Shown: positions 16,791 through 50,921 of the stretch, in pieces | Numbering within the stretch: the first letter of the stretch is position 1 | Layout of the letters: each line of letters opens with the position of its first letter | DNA from: a virus | IMG/VR virus record: IMGVR_UViG_3300044714_000052 | Span: 1 to 64,000 of that record | DNA: 64,000 nt | Direction: 5' to 3' (one strand) | Program-made: the position numbers and the translations under genes | Notes under the pieces: model-generated | The model's input: only the letters and a program-made list of their open reading frames with translations | Told to the model about the DNA's origin: nothing | Databases searched by the model: none

Positions 16791-17078
16791 ATGGGTGAGC
16801 GGCCCTACACCCCGAAGACGGCGGCCGAACATCTCGCTTGCAGCGCGTCGCATATTAGAAAACTCTGCCGCGGGGGAAAATTGCGGCACTTCCGCCTTGG
16901 CGGCGACGAGCGCGGACCGATCCGCATTACCCCCGACGCGTTGGGGGAATTCGTGCGATGCGCCTCGTCTGGTTCCGCGGCAGATGGCATGCCTATGAGC
17001 GAACCCCTGCCGGAGCCCGGCGATACAGCCTTGGCACCAAGAATCGTCAGGTTGCGGAACGTGCTCTCCAAGACCTAG
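16791..17078 (+). CDS. Excisionase-like winged HTH protein (95 aa)
   Basis: YTPKTAAEHLACSASHIRKL and CRGGKLRHFRLGGDERGPIR with ITPDALGEFV form an HTH_17/MerR-like excisionase fold (residues 5-55). The Ser/Glu-rich tail (SSGSAADGMPMSEPLPEPGD) is like that of rhizobial phage excisionases. It overlaps the integrase gene by 121 bp in another frame. Such proteins bend attachment-site DNA and favour excision. Confidence 0.75.
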   Translation: MGERPYTPKTAAEHLACSASHIRKLCRGGKLRHFRLGGDERGPIRITPDALGEFVRCASSGSAADGMPMSEPLPEPGDTALAPRIVRLRNVLSKT

Positions 17079-17914
17079 AAGCAAGCCGGAGGCGCAAGGC
17101 AACCACCGTGACCGAGATGTACGAGGATTATCACGCCGACCGCGGGCACGCTCTTGCCAGCCGGGAGACGCTGGGTTTCGCGTGGAAGCGGTTGAAGCCG
17201 ATCTTCGGGCATCTGAGGCCGGATCAGGTCACCCGCGCTCTCACGCGCGCCTATGCGCTCAAGGAGACGCGTCGCGGTGTCGGGCCATCTTCGATACGCC
17301 GTGACCTCGGCGTGCTGGGTGCGATCGTGCGCTACAACGACAAGCAGTCGCCGGCGGTGATCGAACTGCCGCCCGCACCACCTCCGAAGACGCATCACCT
17401 GACCCGCGAGGAATACAGGTCGCTCAGGGATGCGGCTCAGAAGATTCCTCACCTCTATGTGTTCGTGGTGCTCGCCTACACGACAGCCGGCCGGGCCGGC
17501 GCGATCTTGGAATTGACCTGGGATCGTGTAGATTTCGAGCGCCGCCTGATAGCGCTTGGAAGTGGCGAGCGCCGAGTGAAAGGCCGCGCCACGGTTCCGA
17601 TGACAGGAGGATGTCATGTAGCCCTGACCGAAGCCCGCCGAAGCTCCCTCTCGGATTATGTGGTGGAGTATGCCGGGCGGCGGGTGCGCTCTGTGAAACG
17701 AGCGTTCAAGGCGGCTGTGGAGCGGGCCGGGTTGGACCCAAGCACAAGCCCGCATGTCTTACGCCATAGCGCCGCCGTCCACATGGCCGAGAGCGGCGTC
17801 CCTATGGCGGAGATCGCACAATACCTGGGTCACAGCAGCGAGAGCGTGACCTACCGGGTGTATGCTCGGTTCAGCCCCGATCATCTCAGGAAAGCCGCGG
17901 GAGCATTAGAATGA
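16958..17914 (+). CDS. int: Tyrosine recombinase, phage integrase (318 aa)
   Basis: N-terminal arm-binding region (RGRWHAYERTPAGARRYSLG), SAM-like core-binding helices (residues 50-130), catalytic domain from about 148. Active-site residues visible: Arg179 in TAGRAG, His266 and Arg269 in HVLRH, His292 in GHSS, nucleophile Tyr302 in RVYARF; Lys208 may be the beta-hairpin Lys. Length is typical. It starts inside the excisionase gene. The tRNA-Val gene 750 bp downstream might mark the attachment region, but no att core repeat was found. Confidence 0.92.
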   Translation: MRLVWFRGRWHAYERTPAGARRYSLGTKNRQVAERALQDLEASRRRKATTVTEMYEDYHADRGHALASRETLGFAWKRLKPIFGHLRPDQVTRALTRAYALKETRRGVGPSSIRRDLGVLGAIVRYNDKQSPAVIELPPAPPPKTHHLTREEYRSLRDAAQKIPHLYVFVVLAYTTAGRAGAILELTWDRVDFERRLIALGSGERRVKGRATVPMTGGCHVALTEARRSSLSDYVVEYAGRRVRSVKRAFKAAVERAGLDPSTSPHVLRHSAAVHMAESGVPMAEIAQYLGHSSESVTYRVYARFSPDHLRKAAGALE

Positions 17915-18669: not shown

Positions 18670-18744
18670 GGGAGGTTAGCTCAGAGGTAGAGCGGTCCGT
18701 TCACATCGGACAGGGCGTTGGTTCGACCCCAACACCTCCCACCA
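18670..18744 (+). tRNA. tRNA-Val(CAC) with encoded CCA
   Basis: Full cloverleaf: acceptor GGGAGGT/ACCTCCC, D-arm GCTC/GAGC, anticodon stem GTCCG/CGGAC with loop TTCACAT (anticodon CAC, decodes GUG), T-arm GTTGG-TTCGACC-CCAAC, discriminator A, then CCA. All stems pair perfectly, so it should be functional. Confidence 0.96.
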
Positions 18745-42552: not shown

Positions 42553-42998
42553 CAGGCTGCTCGCGAAATCTGGATTTCGACAAATCCCTCGCGCACCGTT
42601 CCCTCGATCGCGCGGAAGCCAAGGAGATCATAGAACCGTAGCGCGCGCGTGCAGGACTTGTGGACCGATGATCGGATGGTTTGCCTGGCCTCAAGAATGC
42701 GGCCGATCTCCTGCCGAGCGATTCGCACAAGCGTCATCGGCATGCGGTCAAGCGCATCGCTCGTAAAAAACCAGATGAGTCCCTCGGGCGCCAGCGGGGG
42801 AGCCACATCGCCCCACACGGCGACAACCTCACCGCTCGTGATCGCCGCGCGCGGGCCGACAGTCTCTCGCCATAAGCCAAACAGCACATGCCGCGCCTTG
42901 CCGTCGATCGCCGCTAGTTCAATCTGCTCCTCGCGGCGCAAGCGCGGCACGATCGCCCGGATATGGGCCAGCTTGCACGGCACAATCTCGATGCTCAT
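42552..42998 (-). CDS. gp13-like / DUF2833 acetyltransferase-fold protein (148 aa)
   Basis: ATGA overlap sets the start MSIEIVPCKLAHIRAIVPRL. GNAT-like strands (VVAVWGDVAPPLAPEGLIWF, RFYDLLGFRAIEGTVREGFV) match phage DUF2833 proteins such as T7 gp13, needed for head-core maturation. Position between the nozzle and gp14-like genes agrees. Confidence 0.7.
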   Translation of the reverse strand: MSIEIVPCKLAHIRAIVPRLRREEQIELAAIDGKARHVLFGLWRETVGPRAAITSGEVVAVWGDVAPPLAPEGLIWFFTSDALDRMPMTLVRIARQEIGRILEARQTIRSSVHKSCTRALRFYDLLGFRAIEGTVREGFVEIQISRAA

Positions 42999-45900
42999 GC
43001 AGCGCGACCTTGCTGCTGCTGGCGCGGCGGCAACGCATCCTCGGGCTGATCGCCAGTCTGAAGATCGGGGATGAAGCTCAGGACATTCAGAGGTACGGGC
43101 AATGTCTGCTGCACCGCGACCTGACCGGGCTTGCGCGGCTTCGCAGGCACTTTGACGTACACGTCGCCCGTAAAGACTGGCTGTACGGTAGCGCCGCCGG
43201 GTGATGTGTACGTCGCGGGCGGCGTCGGATCGACAAAAGCGAGTTGCGGTGTCACCATGCCATTTGTCCAAGGGACGGCGATGACGGGCGGGATCGTCGA
43301 GGCATCAGTCTGGTTCGTCCCGACTTGCGGCAAGAGCGAGCCCTGTACCCGCACGGTGACGTTGTATATCAGCTTTCGCCGCCCTTGGATTGTCGGTTGG
43401 CCGCCATTTAGATAGACGCTCTGAATCTGCGGCGTAAAGGCGAGCCCGATCACCACGTTGCTCGCGGCGAAGGGCAGCGTCACTTGGCCCAGCGCATTGA
43501 CGACAAATGGCCCGACCGGGACGCCATCAGCCGTGCCGACGACCTGACGGCCGATCAGGTGGCCGAGGCCGCCGAATACTGTGTTGTTGGCTTCGATGTT
43601 CCACGATCCTGACGGCTGCGGCAAGGGTGCATTGTTCGGGTCGGTAGGATAGGTTTCCTGGCATGGCAAGTTCCAAGTCCCGGCGAGCTGTGTCGGCCCA
43701 AGGTATGCGGTGATAATCGCAATGCCGCCACCCATTCGGAGGGTTTGCCCAACATATCCGGCGCCGATAGCGGAAAAGACGCTTGCCGTCGCGGTGAAAG
43801 TCACATTGCCGACAGCGCTGCTGGCATAAAGGGTTGCATTGTAATCGCTGGGGAATTCAAGCGGCCCAGCTGACACCGCCGCATCCACGCACCACGAATC
43901 TTCGATTGTCTGCCACAATCTGTTGTTCATCCGCTCTATAAAGAATCTGGTGCCACCTGCTGAAACTGGGCGCTCTGTGGCAAAATAAACGGCGTTGACC
44001 GGCGGCACTTCGACGGAGCTAATCGGGGATTCGATTACCGATGTAACGGAGCGGAACTGGCCTTGCGTGTCGTGACGCGCCCAACCAGCTAGTTCCTGCT
44101 CTTTCACATAGCTAAGGCTGAGCAGTACCCCGTCATTTCGGACTGCCCACACGAGCCGATAGGGTTGGCGAGCATAGCTCCACTGAAGAATTTGGTAGTT
44201 CTGTAGAAGGTGCGTCGAGGGCCAAGAGATGTCCGTGCCGGCGTAGATGTTGAAGAAAATCTGATATGCGAGATCGAGGACCGTGTTGTTGGCTATCTCG
44301 GCATACAACACGTCCCAATTGATGCGCAGCGGCGGGACTGTCGGCGAGCAGCCGATCGACGATTGCGGGAAGGCGATGATATTTGTCGGCGTGACGGCTG
44401 CCGGAGAGGAAGCAAAGCTGCCGGGTGCGCCGATCTGCCATACACCGGCCCCGGTAAACGACAGCAACCCAAGCGGCATCGAAAGCATCCATTGGATGCC
44501 GTCCACGGTTTCGGCCGTCACGGTGCCGGTAATCGCGTCCGAATCGATGACCGGAATTGAGGCATCGAAATCAGTGAACAAGCCCGGCTGGCTCATGAAG
44601 AACGTGTCGGGCGCGTTCAGGGTCTGGGAATAGACGCGGCGCTCTTGGAAGTAGGAGACGACGCCGGGGTAGGTTCCCGTGAGCTGGCCGACGTTGACCG
44701 TCCCGGATGCTGATGTGCCGGTTCCCGCGAAGACCGGCGTGTCCGTGCTCCGATAATTTATCCCCGGATTAACGACGATGACCGCAACAACCGAGCCGGT
44801 CGGCGTCGGCGATATCACGACTTGGCCGACAAATCCGCTTCCGGTGCTCGTCGTAATGCTGACGGCGGCGGCCGTCCAATCCGCAGATGAGGCCGAGATG
44901 GGAATGCCGAGTACTTGTCCAGGGGCGAAGGGGTCGAAGTGCTGCGGGGGCACTTGATCGAAATCTTGAGTAATGTTCGAATCAACGAACTGTGTCCCAT
45001 AGGCCGCGCCGACAAGGTAGAAGTTGGCTCCCACAGGAACCGGAAGGGCTACGGTGGTGCTGCCGGGATCGGTGTTGTAGGAAGTCGGTGCGCGATAGAT
45101 GTTGTAGTAATACCCGTTGCCGGCGACCGCATTCCAATTGACGATGTTCGAGCCAGCGGTCTCCGCCATATCGACGCCGTTCGTCACATTGACGGGACCG
45201 GCAGACTGGCTTTCTTCTCCGGTCGCGGCATTAACGGATGTGACCTCATAGGCATAGGCGGCCGGCAACGTCGGCGGTGATGTGCTGGAATTTGGCTGTG
45301 TCGTGGCCGTGACGGAGATTCCAGTCACCTCCGGGGATGTCGTCCCGAAGGCTGTCGCCGTCAGCGTCCAGTCAAGCGGACCGAGCCGCGCTAGGTCGTA
45401 AGGTGCGTATGACCCGCCGTTCGGGTTGACGCAACAGAGCGACATCACGTCGGCAGATTGCGTGTACTTCAGGTAGGCCAGATCGGACGCCGCATATGGG
45501 CTCGCAACGGTGTAAATGCGCGAGACAGTGCCGCCGCCGGTAAATGCTGGGAAAAGCGCGGTGTTGACCGGCAGGTTGTTGATTGAGTCGGCGATCGAGA
45601 ATGTCGTCGTGGTCAGAACGGTGATGATGTATGCGTTGTCGTCGAGATTGACCATTCCGCCGATATTCTGCGGGATCACCCAATCCCCGGTGTTGTAGCC
45701 ATGCGCCGTGGGCGCCGTGCTGATAACGCCAGGGGTCGCTTGAGATATGGCGGTAACAGCAATCCCGTTCTCGACAACGACGGAGCCTTCAAAATAGAAG
45801 CGGACGTAGTTGTCGCCGAACTCCAGGACGTAGCCCTGCTGGACGTTGAATTGCCAGTTGATCAGCCGCGGCGGTGAGTTTCCGAGGTCCGGCCTCTGTT

Positions 45901-46075
45901 TGGATGCCAGAATGAATGACGTGCCAGCGCGGGATTTGGCACCTCCCCGGTAATCGACGAAGCAATTTCTCATCGTCGTCGCGGAGGTCTCGACGCGCGC
46001 TAAGTCCGCGTGCCCCCACAATTCTGGTGCGATCTCGCCACCGGCAAAAGAGGTTTTCTGAAACGGAACGGCCAC
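42995..46075 (-). CDS. Tail nozzle protein, gp12-like (1026 aa)
   Basis: GTG start directly after the upstream stop. FQKTSFAGGEIAPELWGHAD and MRNCFVDYRGGAKSRAGTSF form the typical start of tail tubular protein B. Long beta-rich body with fibre-like inserts (GTGTSASGTVNVGQLTGTYP). Larger than T7 gp12 (about 790 aa). It would form the hexameric distal nozzle that docks spikes. Confidence 0.85.
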   Translation of the reverse strand: MAVPFQKTSFAGGEIAPELWGHADLARVETSATTMRNCFVDYRGGAKSRAGTSFILASKQRPDLGNSPPRLINWQFNVQQGYVLEFGDNYVRFYFEGSVVVENGIAVTAISQATPGVISTAPTAHGYNTGDWVIPQNIGGMVNLDDNAYIITVLTTTTFSIADSINNLPVNTALFPAFTGGGTVSRIYTVASPYAASDLAYLKYTQSADVMSLCCVNPNGGSYAPYDLARLGPLDWTLTATAFGTTSPEVTGISVTATTQPNSSTSPPTLPAAYAYEVTSVNAATGEESQSAGPVNVTNGVDMAETAGSNIVNWNAVAGNGYYYNIYRAPTSYNTDPGSTTVALPVPVGANFYLVGAAYGTQFVDSNITQDFDQVPPQHFDPFAPGQVLGIPISASSADWTAAAVSITTSTGSGFVGQVVISPTPTGSVVAVIVVNPGINYRSTDTPVFAGTGTSASGTVNVGQLTGTYPGVVSYFQERRVYSQTLNAPDTFFMSQPGLFTDFDASIPVIDSDAITGTVTAETVDGIQWMLSMPLGLLSFTGAGVWQIGAPGSFASSPAAVTPTNIIAFPQSSIGCSPTVPPLRINWDVLYAEIANNTVLDLAYQIFFNIYAGTDISWPSTHLLQNYQILQWSYARQPYRLVWAVRNDGVLLSLSYVKEQELAGWARHDTQGQFRSVTSVIESPISSVEVPPVNAVYFATERPVSAGGTRFFIERMNNRLWQTIEDSWCVDAAVSAGPLEFPSDYNATLYASSAVGNVTFTATASVFSAIGAGYVGQTLRMGGGIAIITAYLGPTQLAGTWNLPCQETYPTDPNNAPLPQPSGSWNIEANNTVFGGLGHLIGRQVVGTADGVPVGPFVVNALGQVTLPFAASNVVIGLAFTPQIQSVYLNGGQPTIQGRRKLIYNVTVRVQGSLLPQVGTNQTDASTIPPVIAVPWTNGMVTPQLAFVDPTPPATYTSPGGATVQPVFTGDVYVKVPAKPRKPGQVAVQQTLPVPLNVLSFIPDLQTGDQPEDALPPRQQQQGRAA

Positions 46076-47014
46076 TTAGTAGACACTTCCATCCGCGAAG
46101 CTGAAGCTTTCCCAGCCGTAGCCGTAGACACCCGGCCCTCCGCCGCCACCGAAGCCGTCAAAGCCGCCCGCGCCCCATCGGCCAAAGCCGCCGAGCCGGC
46201 GCACGCGCAGCCAGTCAGGCTGATGGTCGGTCGATTGCCGGAAGCCGGCCTCATTATCCGACGACACCCGCGCCTGCCGAATCGCATCCTTGGCGATGGC
46301 GATGTGCGCATTGCGCTCGGCGATGGCGAGCTTGGGGTCGCGCAGCACCTTCATGGCAAGCTGCGACGCCAGTACCGAGACCATCGCTTGGTCGAACAGC
46401 GAGTCCCAAACCTCGATCTCGGCCGCCAAGTACGTGTAGACGAACTGTGCCTGCGGGACGTTTGTCAGTATGATTCGGCGGCTGACCGGCCCAACGCCCT
46501 GGGTCGCGTCGAAGTCTGGCGCATAGGGACCAATCTGCGACGGGTACTGATCTGTGTTGCTCAGCAGGAAGCGGGCTGGCCGCTCATAGGGGTAGAGCGG
46601 GATCGACGGCACGTTCAGGTTCGGTGTGATCGGAACCGCCGGGTTCGGCGGCTGAATGTTGCCCGGTATCGGTGGGCCGCCAGCAATCGCCAGGGCCGAG
46701 GGCGGTAGCCCGCTCCACGGGAGCCAACGGGCACAAACCGCATCATTCGGCCATGCGTAGCAATATATCCAAGGAGCCTCCACGATTGTCCCGACGTTCG
46801 GGGTTTGCCCGGTGGAATCGCCCAGCAGGGTCAGCGGCCCCCGCTTGCGGGCAAAGGACCAGAATGACGCTCTCAATAATTGCATTAGTGCTGTCGTATA
46901 GATGCGGCGCGCAGCCTCGCTCTCGGTCGTACCATCGAAGATGCTGCCGATCGTGACTGGCGAACCAATTGCATCCAGGGAGCGGTTGACGATGTGCGCG
47001 GGCTCGGTCGTCAT
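46076..47014 (-). CDS. gp11-like tail adaptor, paralogue 1 (312 aa)
   Basis: IVNRSLDAIGSPVTIGSIFD, RASFWSFARKRGPL and VVYT-type C-terminal helices match the gp11/tail tubular A adaptor fold. A Pro-rich insert (PNPAVPITPNLNVPSIPLYP) and a Gly-rich C-terminus (GRWGAGGFDGFGGGGGPGVY) are extra. Next to the nozzle gene, so probably the member that contacts it. Confidence 0.75.
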   Translation of the reverse strand: MTTEPAHIVNRSLDAIGSPVTIGSIFDGTTESEAARRIYTTALMQLLRASFWSFARKRGPLTLLGDSTGQTPNVGTIVEAPWIYCYAWPNDAVCARWLPWSGLPPSALAIAGGPPIPGNIQPPNPAVPITPNLNVPSIPLYPYERPARFLLSNTDQYPSQIGPYAPDFDATQGVGPVSRRIILTNVPQAQFVYTYLAAEIEVWDSLFDQAMVSVLASQLAMKVLRDPKLAIAERNAHIAIAKDAIRQARVSSDNEAGFRQSTDHQPDWLRVRRLGGFGRWGAGGFDGFGGGGGPGVYGYGWESFSFADGSVY

Positions 47015-47640
47015 CCCCGCCGCCTCTCCGCGGCTGCGCCGACGGCAACCGCCGTCTGCTGCTCAGCCTGCTTGAGTTGCAGATTGCCGGCGAGATGCGG
47101 CACCAGTGCCTCGGCAAGCGCATCCACGAACGTCTCGACGAAGTCTGCCGTCCAGAGAGCGGGATTCGTGACGCGCGCCCGATAGACGCACAGAGCCGAC
47201 GGCATATTGGCGAGGATCACCTTGTAAGGCTGGACCGCCGCTCCGGTTGCGCTGAAGCTGTCGTCATCCACCCGCCAGTTCGCCGCACGCGGCACAAGGA
47301 TCGGATAGAGCGTCGGCGGCGGGACGATCGCCGCGAATTGCAGGCAATCGGACGGATAGGCGTATTCAAAGCCCCATCCCGGTGGCGGATAGGCTGGCGT
47401 CCAAGGTTGCCAGGGTCCGTAGCCGCCGATCGGCGGTGGGCCTTTGAGAAGCGTCAGGGCGACATTAGCCCGGCGCGCGAAGTCCCAATCGGCCTCGCGG
47501 ATCAGATAATCGCGGGTTTGGCCGAAAACATCGAGAGCAGCCCTCGCAGCTAGAGTGCCTTCATAGATGTTGCCGATCCGCCGCGTGTAGCCGATCCTGA
47601 CTAGAGCCTGATTGCAGAGCTGTTCAACGCTGGGTGCCAC
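47011..47640 (-). CDS. gp11-like tail adaptor, paralogue 2 (209 aa)
   Basis: GTG start with 17-bp overlap. QLCNQALVRIGYTRRIGNIY, READWDFARRANVAL and WGFEYAYPSDCLQF are the family blocks. Shares the plan of its three neighbours. Would sit in the adaptor ring below the portal. Confidence 0.75.
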   Translation of the reverse strand: MAPSVEQLCNQALVRIGYTRRIGNIYEGTLAARAALDVFGQTRDYLIREADWDFARRANVALTLLKGPPPIGGYGPWQPWTPAYPPPGWGFEYAYPSDCLQFAAIVPPPTLYPILVPRAANWRVDDDSFSATGAAVQPYKVILANMPSALCVYRARVTNPALWTADFVETFVDALAEALVPHLAGNLQLKQAEQQTAVAVGAAAERRRG

Positions 47641-48241
47641 CGCCAGCTCCGATCATCTCCATGCGCGGGGGTGCTGCCGTATCATCTACGACCGCAGCCG
47701 TATCGCGAGAGGCTTCCGAAATCCCGGCCTCTTGCTGCAATAGATTCGTCGCTGCCTGCGAGAGAGTTAGATGCGCCGCTAGCGAGGCGACGAAGGCGCG
47801 CGTGAAGCCCGGCTCCCAGGTATTCGGGTTCGTCACCTGTCCTACGTAGACAAGCGTTGCGGGCGAGATGCTGGCTAGGATCGCGCGGATCGGCGGCGAC
47901 GGCCGCTGATCATTCCAAGGCTCAAACAGCACTGGCTGCGGATCATAGGGATCAAGCGCGGCAAAGCTCCCCGGCTGCACATAGCGAATGCGCAGGCAGT
48001 CGCTCGGATAATTGAATTCGTAGGGCCAAGGAGCTGGTGCCAATTGCCCAGCCACAGCCGTCAAGCCGGCCTCGCGCATCGCGAAAGGCCACTCCTCGCG
48101 TTGCAGCAATTCATCGCGGACCTGCGAGAAAAGCTCAAGACATGCTTTGGCAACCTCAGAGCCCTCATAGGCAGAGCCGATGCGTTTTTTGACGCCGAGC
48201 TGGCGAAGCGCCTCATTACAAAGCCCCTCCCACGTTGCCAT
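47624..48241 (-). CDS. gp11-like tail adaptor, paralogue 3 (205 aa)
   Basis: TGATG overlap. LCNEALRQLGVKKRIGSAYE, REEWPFAMREAGLTA and YEFNYPSDCLRIRYVQPG align block by block with paralogue 2. Confidence 0.75.
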   Translation of the reverse strand: MATWEGLCNEALRQLGVKKRIGSAYEGSEVAKACLELFSQVRDELLQREEWPFAMREAGLTAVAGQLAPAPWPYEFNYPSDCLRIRYVQPGSFAALDPYDPQPVLFEPWNDQRPSPPIRAILASISPATLVYVGQVTNPNTWEPGFTRAFVASLAAHLTLSQAATNLLQQEAGISEASRDTAAVVDDTAAPPRMEMIGAGGGTQR

Positions 48242-48846
48242 CACGCACCCGTCGCACTTTCGTCCGAAAGCTCGGCCATCTGCTCATATTGAAGTGCCTG
48301 GCTCAGAAGCTCGCGGGCATAGTCGGGGCGTCCCTCAAGAGCCATAGAGAGCGGGTTGGCGAGTTGGCGCACGACCGCCATCGTAAACATCGGGTCCCAA
48401 TCGTTCTCGGTGAGCTTCGACGATGTGTAGACAGCGAGCGCATTCACTTGGTTGCTGAAGATGACCTTTGTCGGTGTGCTGGCGATCTCGTCGAGCGCGA
48501 CATTGCCAAGGATCAACTGAGGATCGTAGATGTCATAAGAGCCAGCCGGAGGGGCGAGGCATCGCAGCCGCAGGCAGTCGCTCGGGTATGCGTACTCGAA
48601 TGCCCAGCCGGGCGGCAGGTTGCCGTTCGTGATCGGCGTCAGGGCCGCCGTCAAACGAGCAAAGTCGGGGTCAAGCTGCCGCGCCACCATCTGCCATGTC
48701 GGCTGATAAAGCACGGGGGCCGCGAGTGCCGATGTCCCGTCACCCGCCCAAGTGCCGCCACCGCCGGCTGGCCCCGTGTAGGTGACAAAGGCTTGGTTGC
48801 CGCTGAATTCCAGGGCTTGGTTGAATATGTCGGCAGGCGAGGTCAT
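48241..48846 (-). CDS. gp11-like tail adaptor, paralogue 4 (201 aa)
   Basis: ATGA overlap with the spike gene (MTSPADIFNQALEFSGNQAF). The N-terminal part is the most diverged, but PPGWAFEYAYPSDCLRLRCL and VYTSSKLTENDWDPMFTMAV fit the family. Confidence 0.7.
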   Translation of the reverse strand: MTSPADIFNQALEFSGNQAFVTYTGPAGGGGTWAGDGTSALAAPVLYQPTWQMVARQLDPDFARLTAALTPITNGNLPPGWAFEYAYPSDCLRLRCLAPPAGSYDIYDPQLILGNVALDEIASTPTKVIFSNQVNALAVYTSSKLTENDWDPMFTMAVVRQLANPLSMALEGRPDYARELLSQALQYEQMAELSDESATGA

Positions 48847-50921
48847 TGCGCCGAGTTGCAATGGACGTTGATAAATATCAAGGTGCCGACCTGGATATTC
48901 GTGTCATTCAATTGCCCGATGATGCCAGAGAGGGGTTGTGCGGTCAGGCTGATCGGCGAGGCCACACCGGGCGTGCCCTCCAACACCAACTGCCCACCCA
49001 ACACTCCTGGACTTCCAAGGATATTTGTGGCGTTCGTCACCGGGTTGGTCACGTTGCCACCCTGACACGAGTAGGCACCCCCGATGATTTGCGCGGCCCC
49101 CGATGTCGTGCCGCTTTTGCCGGACACGACAATCTGTGCGTACTCCGTAAAGCCGCCATCTGCCGTGCGATACTCGAAGCCAGAGGTGCCGCCGCCCAGC
49201 GTCCATCCGGTACTCGAACCGCCGGTGATCAGAACCGGCGTAAATCCCGTGCGGTTCGGCGACTTCATTGTCACGGAGCCCGTGGCGGCCGTGTCCGCGA
49301 CGACGCCAGCAAGCGGGTCGTCGATTGCCAGCCGTTCCCACGGCCCTGTCACCGTGAGGCTAGACATAGAATTGTCGTCATCCCATAAGACATTGGCGGT
49401 GCTGGCGTTATTAGCCGTGTAACTGACCGGCCCGCACATCTGGTTGTGGTCGAAATTGTCGTTCTCAAACGCGGGGCCGCTCGCGGGGGCCGGGACTAAT
49501 GCCGTGCTGGAGCACGAGAACGCGTTGTGGTCAAGATTCCAATTCTCTAATGCCGTAAAGGAGTTAAGATTATACATGGCCGGCACAGTTGCGCCGCCGA
49601 CAGCGCCCATCGTCCATGTCGTGTGGTGCAATGAGAAACTGGCAATGACCGGGACGGTGTTGTCCGAGCAAATATTGGCCGGGGTCGAGCCGGTATAGTC
49701 ATGATATTCAAAGTGACTGTCGCTAAAGGTGATGTCGGCACCCCAATTGGGGTTGGGAGTCCCGGCATTGAAATTCGCAAACCGGATTGAGCACTGCTCG
49801 CCGCCGGATGAGATAAAGTCGTATCCAGAAAACGTAATGGTGTTAGGCCCACATCCGCCGGTATTGCATGCCGTGTTCTCAAACAGCACATCATCCGCCG
49901 ATGTCGTGGGGTCGCCGCTTCCATTGCGACCAGCGTACCCACCGAACACATGCGCGTCAACGTAACCGTCGAATACCCACTTGTGGTTGCATATTGCCGG
50001 CTTCATATCGTACATATTCGTCGTTATGCCAGCATTGCTAACCCCCTGGAAATCGAGACAGGTATCGAAGTTCTGGACCCCCATATTCGATAGATGCGCA
50101 CCGTTGCCGCCCTGAAGCATAAATCCGACGCCACCCACGGCGCGCGTCGAACCAATCCCGACGATGTTAAGATTGCTGATCTGGGCAGGCTGAAGACTGC
50201 CGCTGCCGCCGGTGAACTTTAGGCATGGGGCTGCAATGCTGTTTGGGCAGGCGAGCGTGGAGCCTTGAATGTAGTCGCCGGCGCCCGCGAAACTCCCTAT
50301 GATGCTTGCGGGAGCGGCTCCAGTTACCCCAGACTGGCTAAAGCAGGTCGTTCCGGGCCAGCCGATCGCAATATGAGTGGCGACGGATGCCGCTAGAGCA
50401 TTGTCGATTGCGCTGGTATCGTCCGTAACCCCATCGCACTTTGCGCCAAAAGCCGTCACCGAGACGACGCCGGCCTGTCCGGTTGGGTTGACGACAAACG
50501 GGAACTGATAAAGTTGACCATCGACCTTAAAGTGCAATGGTTGTCCGGTCGGCGAATTGAAATCAATCAGTCCGCCACCGAGAGCGTCCGCATCCACGCA
50601 AATGTAAGGAGGTGGCGTCGGGTTGCCGAGGACATAAGCGCCCCAATCGCAATCGTGCGTGCCGTCCGGCCCGGTCCCTGGCCCCTTCGCTTGCAACAAC
50701 TTCTCGGATAGGCCGGTTCCGATTGGGCCTCCGCTAGCCGGGCCAGAGTCCATAACCTGCGCAGCACCTTGCGGGCTCGCCGGCATGTAGACGGGCGCGT
50801 GGCCGCCCCCATTCAGGATCGGCCCGGACTGGATCACCGCCTGGGCGAATGCTGAGGGCGCAATCAAAAACGCGGCCACGAGGGCCGCGGCGACGCGCAA
50901 TGTCAGGCGAAGATGCGCCAT
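48843..50921 (-). CDS. Tail spike, pectate-lyase-like beta-helix, with Sec signal (692 aa)
   Basis: MAHLRLTLRVAAALVAAFLI then APSAFAQ is a clear signal peptide. VVSVTAFGAKCDGVTDDTSA IDNAL near residue 150 is the standard entry to a right-handed beta-helix (GAKGDGxTDDTxA). Long parallel-beta region to about 560, then a beta cap. It probably recognises or cuts a surface polysaccharide. Coupled to the adaptor genes. Confidence 0.8.
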   Translation of the reverse strand: MAHLRLTLRVAAALVAAFLIAPSAFAQAVIQSGPILNGGGHAPVYMPASPQGAAQVMDSGPASGGPIGTGLSEKLLQAKGPGTGPDGTHDCDWGAYVLGNPTPPPYICVDADALGGGLIDFNSPTGQPLHFKVDGQLYQFPFVVNPTGQAGVVSVTAFGAKCDGVTDDTSAIDNALAASVATHIAIGWPGTTCFSQSGVTGAAPASIIGSFAGAGDYIQGSTLACPNSIAAPCLKFTGGSGSLQPAQISNLNIVGIGSTRAVGGVGFMLQGGNGAHLSNMGVQNFDTCLDFQGVSNAGITTNMYDMKPAICNHKWVFDGYVDAHVFGGYAGRNGSGDPTTSADDVLFENTACNTGGCGPNTITFSGYDFISSGGEQCSIRFANFNAGTPNPNWGADITFSDSHFEYHDYTGSTPANICSDNTVPVIASFSLHHTTWTMGAVGGATVPAMYNLNSFTALENWNLDHNAFSCSSTALVPAPASGPAFENDNFDHNQMCGPVSYTANNASTANVLWDDDNSMSSLTVTGPWERLAIDDPLAGVVADTAATGSVTMKSPNRTGFTPVLITGGSSTGWTLGGGTSGFEYRTADGGFTEYAQIVVSGKSGTTSGAAQIIGGAYSCQGGNVTNPVTNATNILGSPGVLGGQLVLEGTPGVASPISLTAQPLSGIIGQLNDTNIQVGTLIFINVHCNSAQ

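Follow-up and report, generated by a model that had tools for sequence, protein, structure and literature searches.

Ordered arrays of gp11-like tail adaptor paralogues in an epsilon15-type podovirus lineage, and a proposed barrel of stacked rings

Gene content of the locus

The window, that is, the whole stretch of DNA that was analysed, comprises 64,000 nucleotides and corresponds to positions 1 to 64,000 of the IMG/VR virus record IMGVR_UViG_3300044714_000052. Between positions 46076 and 48846 it carries four consecutive minus-strand genes (Table 1), whose neighbouring ends overlap or abut and whose GC content across codon positions is of the coding type. Each of the four products matches the 'tail protein' profile PHROG_394 over most of its length (E 1e-18 to 2e-27), and a six-frame search of the whole 67,579 b record returned exactly four matches to this profile. 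The four genes had been predicted from the sequence to be consecutive paralogues resembling the T7 adaptor gp11; the exact ORF coordinates, PHROG_394, BLASTP and the class profiles described below all agree with this.

Table 1. Features of the window that bear on the adaptor array.
Feature	Position	Strand	Evidence
Tail nozzle, 1026 aa; start adjoins the stop of class C	42995..46075	-	PHROG_376, E 1.9e-133; synteny with epsilon15 gp12 and Carin-1 nozzle
P0001, adaptor class C, 312 aa; adjoins nozzle gene; with C-terminal arm/tail	46076..47014	-	PHROG_394, E 7.7e-21; clade C 100/100
P0002, adaptor class B, conserved penultimate copy, 209 aa; GTG start	47011..47640	-	PHROG_394, E 1.2e-25
P0003, adaptor class B, extra copy, 205 aa	47624..48241	-	PHROG_394, E 1.9e-27; clade B 100/97
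P0004, adaptor class A, 201 aa; opens the array	48241..48846	-	PHROG_394, E 1.2e-18; clade A 100/100
Probable pectate-lyase-like tail spike, 692 aa; immediately upstream of class A	48843..50921	-	Sub-threshold Pfam Pect-lyase_RHGA_epim, E 1.5e-4 (weak)
Portal, 614 aa	59917..61761	-	PHROG_332, E 1.8e-114 (family of epsilon15 gp4-type head-tail adaptor/portal); synteny
Integrase gene	16958..17914		
tRNA-Val gene	18670..18744		

Besides the portal and nozzle, the phage encodes a capsid protein (PHROG_212), a protease (PHROG_458) and internal virion proteins (PHROG_308 and PHROG_418). Because the portal, capsid, protease and internal virion protein families match, the phage is placed with epsilon15, BPP-1 and Carin-1. 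The likeness to T7 drawn at the outset did not hold for the phage type: this is an epsilon15/BPP-1-type podovirus, T7-like in the fold of its adaptors only. It is probably temperate, since the integrase gene ends about 750 b before the tRNA-Val gene; this region possibly contains an attachment site, in which case some of the window may derive from the host.

It should be noted that residues 115-185 of the nozzle match Pfam E1_FCCH (E 1.5e-7). Some Vibrio phage nozzles with the same match are annotated as 'FCCH domain ubiquitin-activating enzyme E1', and the segment is probably a structural domain misnamed by such annotations.

Homology and predicted fold of the four products

Pairwise alignment, proposed as a check of the paralogy, bore it out: in BLASTP all four products match each other (E 5e-27 to 1e-4), and the profiles built for the three classes into which they fall (A, B and C, see below) match one another in hhalign with E values from 4e-30 to 2e-39. 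These matches point to homology and not to the chance sharing of motifs. The three sequence blocks originally described as common to all four products are in part less general: L-x3-G is present in 4/4, while W-x-F-A-x-R and EYAYPSDCL occur in 2/4 each. Variants of these blocks are found, such as WSFARK and YCYAWPNDAV in P0001 and DFARL in P0004. A Pfam search of the four adaptor products gave no match for any of them.

The gp11-type adaptor fold, likewise predicted, is supported by structure prediction for classes A and C and by sequence and profile for class B. All class profiles match the connector of Carin-1 (8ck1_E; E 9e-20, 3e-22 and 8e-15) and also LME-1 orf17. The AlphaFold2 model of P0004 (class A; pLDDT 87.8) retrieved 8ck1_E in Foldseek with an E value of 7e-11. 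The model of P0001 (class C), with a pLDDT of 72.0 and low values for the loop 111-137 and the tail 256-312, retrieved 8ck1_E (8e-12), the KP32 TTPA structure 5mu4 (1e-4), PhiM1, and T7 gp11 (7box/6r21; about 1e-3, probability 1.0). Models of both classes also match the LME-1, cyanophage and crAss001 tail-barrel rings, the crAss001 chains 7qoj_E, 7qoj_F and 7qoj_D being among the matches of the class A model and 7qoj_E also among those of the class C model. In the models, classes A and C are predicted to share the helix bundle and beta domain of the solved adaptors, and class B presumably has the same fold, considering its profile match to Carin-1 and to classes A and C.

Distribution, copy number and gene order

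The array is not peculiar to the window; it is conserved across a whole lineage and is carried by about 100 uncultured loci. A first search, in which an alignment of the four paralogues was compared with viral contigs, yielded 80 contigs, and a second search added more; single-sequence pattern searches with P0003 or the nozzle found no relatives among the viral contigs. In the first search two to four copies were present in 24 of the 50 contigs counted and one copy in 26, two of the low counts being due to contig fragments.

Arrays were then counted with the class profiles, using 53 non-redundant arrays that start inside their contig, most of these contigs being fragments from uncultured sources. 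Three genes are present in 45 arrays, four in five, and five, eight and two genes in one array each. The order is A–B(n)–C, with the nozzle gene next; A is first, B in the middle and C last in all 53 arrays but one (ABABC, locus L144), with the qualification that for a few opening or closing genes the single-copy profile gives a marginally higher score than the class profiles. The number of B copies is usually one; it is two in the window and reaches six on one contig, and B is the only class that is amplified, save for one A-like exception.

That exception, L144 (6731-10903), reads A B A B C and is the sole case with an extra A-like middle copy; a stop may interrupt the first of its A copies. 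In two further loci (L148:298-1804 and L149:1694-3200) A is followed directly by C, without B, and these two-gene arrays are possibly an intermediate or the result of loss. The most extreme array found is L147:1540-10872 (IMGVR_UViG_3300049214_000068); one A, six B and one C gene make it up, and a spike gene encoding 1373 aa separates A from the first B. Its copies are intact and distinct: the five extra B products show 53-67% identity among themselves, the sixth 36-46%. An independent PHROG_394 search likewise found eight genes in L147 and two in L148/L149.

In contrast to these arrays, the single-copy relatives hold one gene in all 50 non-redundant loci with at least 3 kb of upstream sequence. 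The same is true of the ten named phages checked (10/10), and in the phage collection every query found one adaptor place per record.

Other genes occasionally lie between B and C, namely HNH endonuclease genes (L011:1362-1847 and L121:9395-9982) and a DNA methylase-like ORF (L006:1635-2102). They were considered as ring-associated hub proteins and rejected, since they have the appearance of mobile insertions; likely, they are mobile genes that landed in the array. Inspection by eye of the genes between array members revealed no hub genes of the crAss type. Open frames of 502-522 aa with two PHROG_394 copies were similarly discarded as didomain fusions, because a stop (TAA or TGA) separates the in-frame genes. 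A fusion of another kind is seen in L087:4726-6684 (MW202478), where a single-copy adaptor is joined to the C-terminal end of a 420-aa repeat protein (GTAKTTTFTK... units).

As for the host, two array loci lie in metagenome-assembled genomes (MAGs) labelled Hyphomicrobiales and Rhizobiales and one in a MAG labelled Patescibacteria; four proteobacterial assemblies gave relatives with one copy in the same search. When the whole family around the MAG of locus L097 was searched, the array was found in that genome only, along with one weak partial match. A Rhizobiales/Hyphomicrobiales host is suggested.

Phylogeny and selection

In a 78-row tree the classes form separate clades (A, 100/100; B, 100/97; C, 100/100), and the single-copy adaptors group with C with weak support (85/82). 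On this tree A, B and C are three ancient classes. In a second tree, built from 127 rows of A and B genes and with many weak forks, the gene adjoining C emerges as the conserved B copy. The extra B genes branch at roughly four to five distinct positions (L018/L026, L152/L155, window/L007/L147, L160 and L144), so that the middle class has been amplified repeatedly. P0002 pairs with the penultimate B gene of L005 (100/99) within a set of seven penultimate B genes. P0003 lies on a long branch and clusters, with weak support (83-86), with the additional B genes from the middle of the L007 and L147 arrays.

Over all pairs the dN/dS medians are 0.43-0.50, but those pairs are near saturation, and close pairs alone were used. 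Among pairs more than 85% identical, which are few and do not include P0003, as it has no close relative, dN/dS is 0.04-0.10 for A, 0-0.07 for B and 0.007-0.18 for C. These values indicate purifying selection on all three classes in closely related pairs.

The C-terminal arm and the tail spike

Similarity to the single-copy adaptors was compared segment by segment, and it separates the classes in the C-terminal arm only; the N-terminal helices do not separate them (B 32-33%, C 29-34%, A 24-25%). The C-terminal motif NE...[WF]x..R is present in 47/62 single-copy adaptors, being absent in 15/62, and in 48/61 class C products, and it is found in 0/53 of class A and 0/73 of class B, which appear to have lost the arm. 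In solved tails this part of the adaptor contacts the portal: the T7 adaptor ends in an embracing helix that extends to the portal stem (PMC6702177), the adaptors of P22 and DEV push their C-terminal arm in between the portal subunits (PMC10925440), and in Peru-2 the arm helices touch the portal (PMC13320782). Because the arm is kept in C alone and grips the portal in these four phages, class C is the best candidate for a portal-docking ring.

The N-terminal domain family of the spike is found in 58 loci, comprising the window and multi-ring loci, and none of the single-copy loci has it; shared ancestry and limited flank length confound this co-occurrence. The spike gene immediately precedes A in 30 loci as well as in the window, and in two loci it separates A from B. 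In T7 and Peru-2, spikes sit at the seam between adaptor and nozzle. Taken together with the position of the spike gene beside A, this suggests by analogy that class A is at the nozzle and spike end. The original proposal that portal, spike and nozzle are served by different paralogues is plausible from these sequence features.

Several spikes (the window spike, L147:2124-6242, L157:861-2723 and L095:2929-8574) begin with an N-terminus resembling a secretion signal (e.g. ...APSAFAQA), followed by a conserved segment of the QxGPxxPGH type, which is odd for a virion protein. In L095 two spike genes with such a start lie in tandem.

A proposed tail barrel

The original prediction envisaged a hetero-oligomeric or a stacked adaptor. 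A multi-part adaptor is likely, because the paralogues are of the gp11 type and all belong to classes under purifying selection. Of its two forms, stacking is the best supported, considering the A-B(n)-C order, the almost exclusive amplification of the middle, and the five-ring barrel of crAss001; the mixed ring has found no positive evidence.

We consider it probable that classes A, B, B and C form separate stacked rings, probably 12-mers, in the order portal-C-B-B-A-nozzle, an order drawn from one C-terminal motif and from gene neighbours. The rings would sit between the portal and a hexameric nozzle, giving a longer barrel than that of single-ring podoviruses. The C ring would dock to the portal by its C-terminal arm, the B rings would act as spacers whose number grows by gene duplication, and the A ring would face the nozzle and the tail spikes.

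The gene order itself can equally be read as portal-A-B-C-nozzle. In such a reverse stack, which we regard as rather unlikely, C would dock the nozzle instead. In favour of this, the nozzle gene directly adjoins C: in 60/71 loci the start of an ORF of 450 aa or more lies no further than 300 b from C, and a recognised nozzle lies within 150 b of C in 53/82. Gene neighbourhood, however, predicts ring order poorly. In the outgroup of crAss001 the single ring gene corresponds to the muzzle-end rings (PMC10172136), which would fit C as the class nearest to the single-copy adaptors. Against this, the arm by which the adaptors of T7, P22, DEV and Peru-2 hold the portal is kept by C alone, and for this reason we prefer the order with C at the portal.

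The same arm could be taken to mean that C, or one class, is the sole working adaptor, having alone the full single-ring architecture, and that A and B are alternative or regulatory copies, such as variants for host range or assembly, or decaying ones, as the long branch of P0003 might indicate. This appears improbable, given that A and B are kept in fixed order across a diverse clade, that their dN/dS is 0-0.10 in close pairs, and that the ORFs are intact even in the eight-gene array. A single ring of mixed classes, for instance with alternating subunits and without stacking, would suit homologous, co-transcribed, overlapping genes with the same predicted fold, but is quite improbable, as B varies from 0 or 1 to 6 copies while A and C stay single, which is unsuited to a fixed 12-subunit ring, and the known solved case with several paralogues stacks homomeric rings.

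The proposed stack of separate rings may be taken further: with slightly less than even odds, its height is adjustable, with A and C as end caps and tails lengthened stepwise by tandem amplification of B, to as many as six B rings in one lineage, independently of crassviruses.

If the stacked barrel is confirmed, a short-tailed lineage would have lengthened its tail barrel by duplication of the adaptor and specialization of the copies, separately from crassviruses. The variation of B from one to six among related phages would then allow a direct test of whether the number of ring genes sets tail length, a question that bears on the passage of podovirus tails through the cell envelope and on the possible origin of tubular tails.

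Comparison with known systems

The adaptors of epsilon15 (gp11), BPP-1 (Bbp14), phiV10, BcepC6B and HTVC010P also belong to PHROG_394, and the window phage shares with these phages a gene plan of portal, protease, major capsid protein, adaptor, nozzle and GNAT-like internal virion protein. However, those checked each have one adaptor gene, whereas four genes in three classes are present here. The closest solved structure is the Carin-1 connector gp37 (8ck1 chain E), reached by all classes in profile searches and by A and C in fold; unlike the window phage, Carin-1 has a single connector gene. T7 gp11 and KP32 TTPA match class C in fold, no sequence-level match to either was found, and T7 has one gene and one 12-mer ring.

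The one solved parallel found comes from the gut crassviruses, which are unrelated to the window phage. In crAss001, five stacked dodecameric rings built from four paralogous proteins, R1-R4, lie between portal and muzzle (Bayfield et al. 2023, PMC10172136), and multi-ring genes have been termed a defining feature of crassviruses (PMC10172136). The window phage resembles crAss001 in that several paralogous adaptor-fold proteins are encoded together. It belongs to another phage lineage and is not a crassvirus: its portal, capsid and nozzle fall in epsilon15-type PHROGs, and searches with the class profiles reached no crAss001 ring sequence at E up to 1. In addition, its relatives have two to eight genes whose order is A-B(n)-C and whose middle class can expand, set in an epsilon15-type gene plan. 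The simplest reading of these sequence data would be a separate origin of the crassvirus-like multi-ring solution, the middle ring here being open to multiplication.

Our literature searches found no report of such adaptor arrays outside crassviruses. According to a line in a review, the number of dodecameric adaptors in podophages ranges from one to three, with crAss001 and phage GP4 given as references. The stacking of adaptors is therefore not new in itself; what is new is their ordered and expandable gene array in this lineage.
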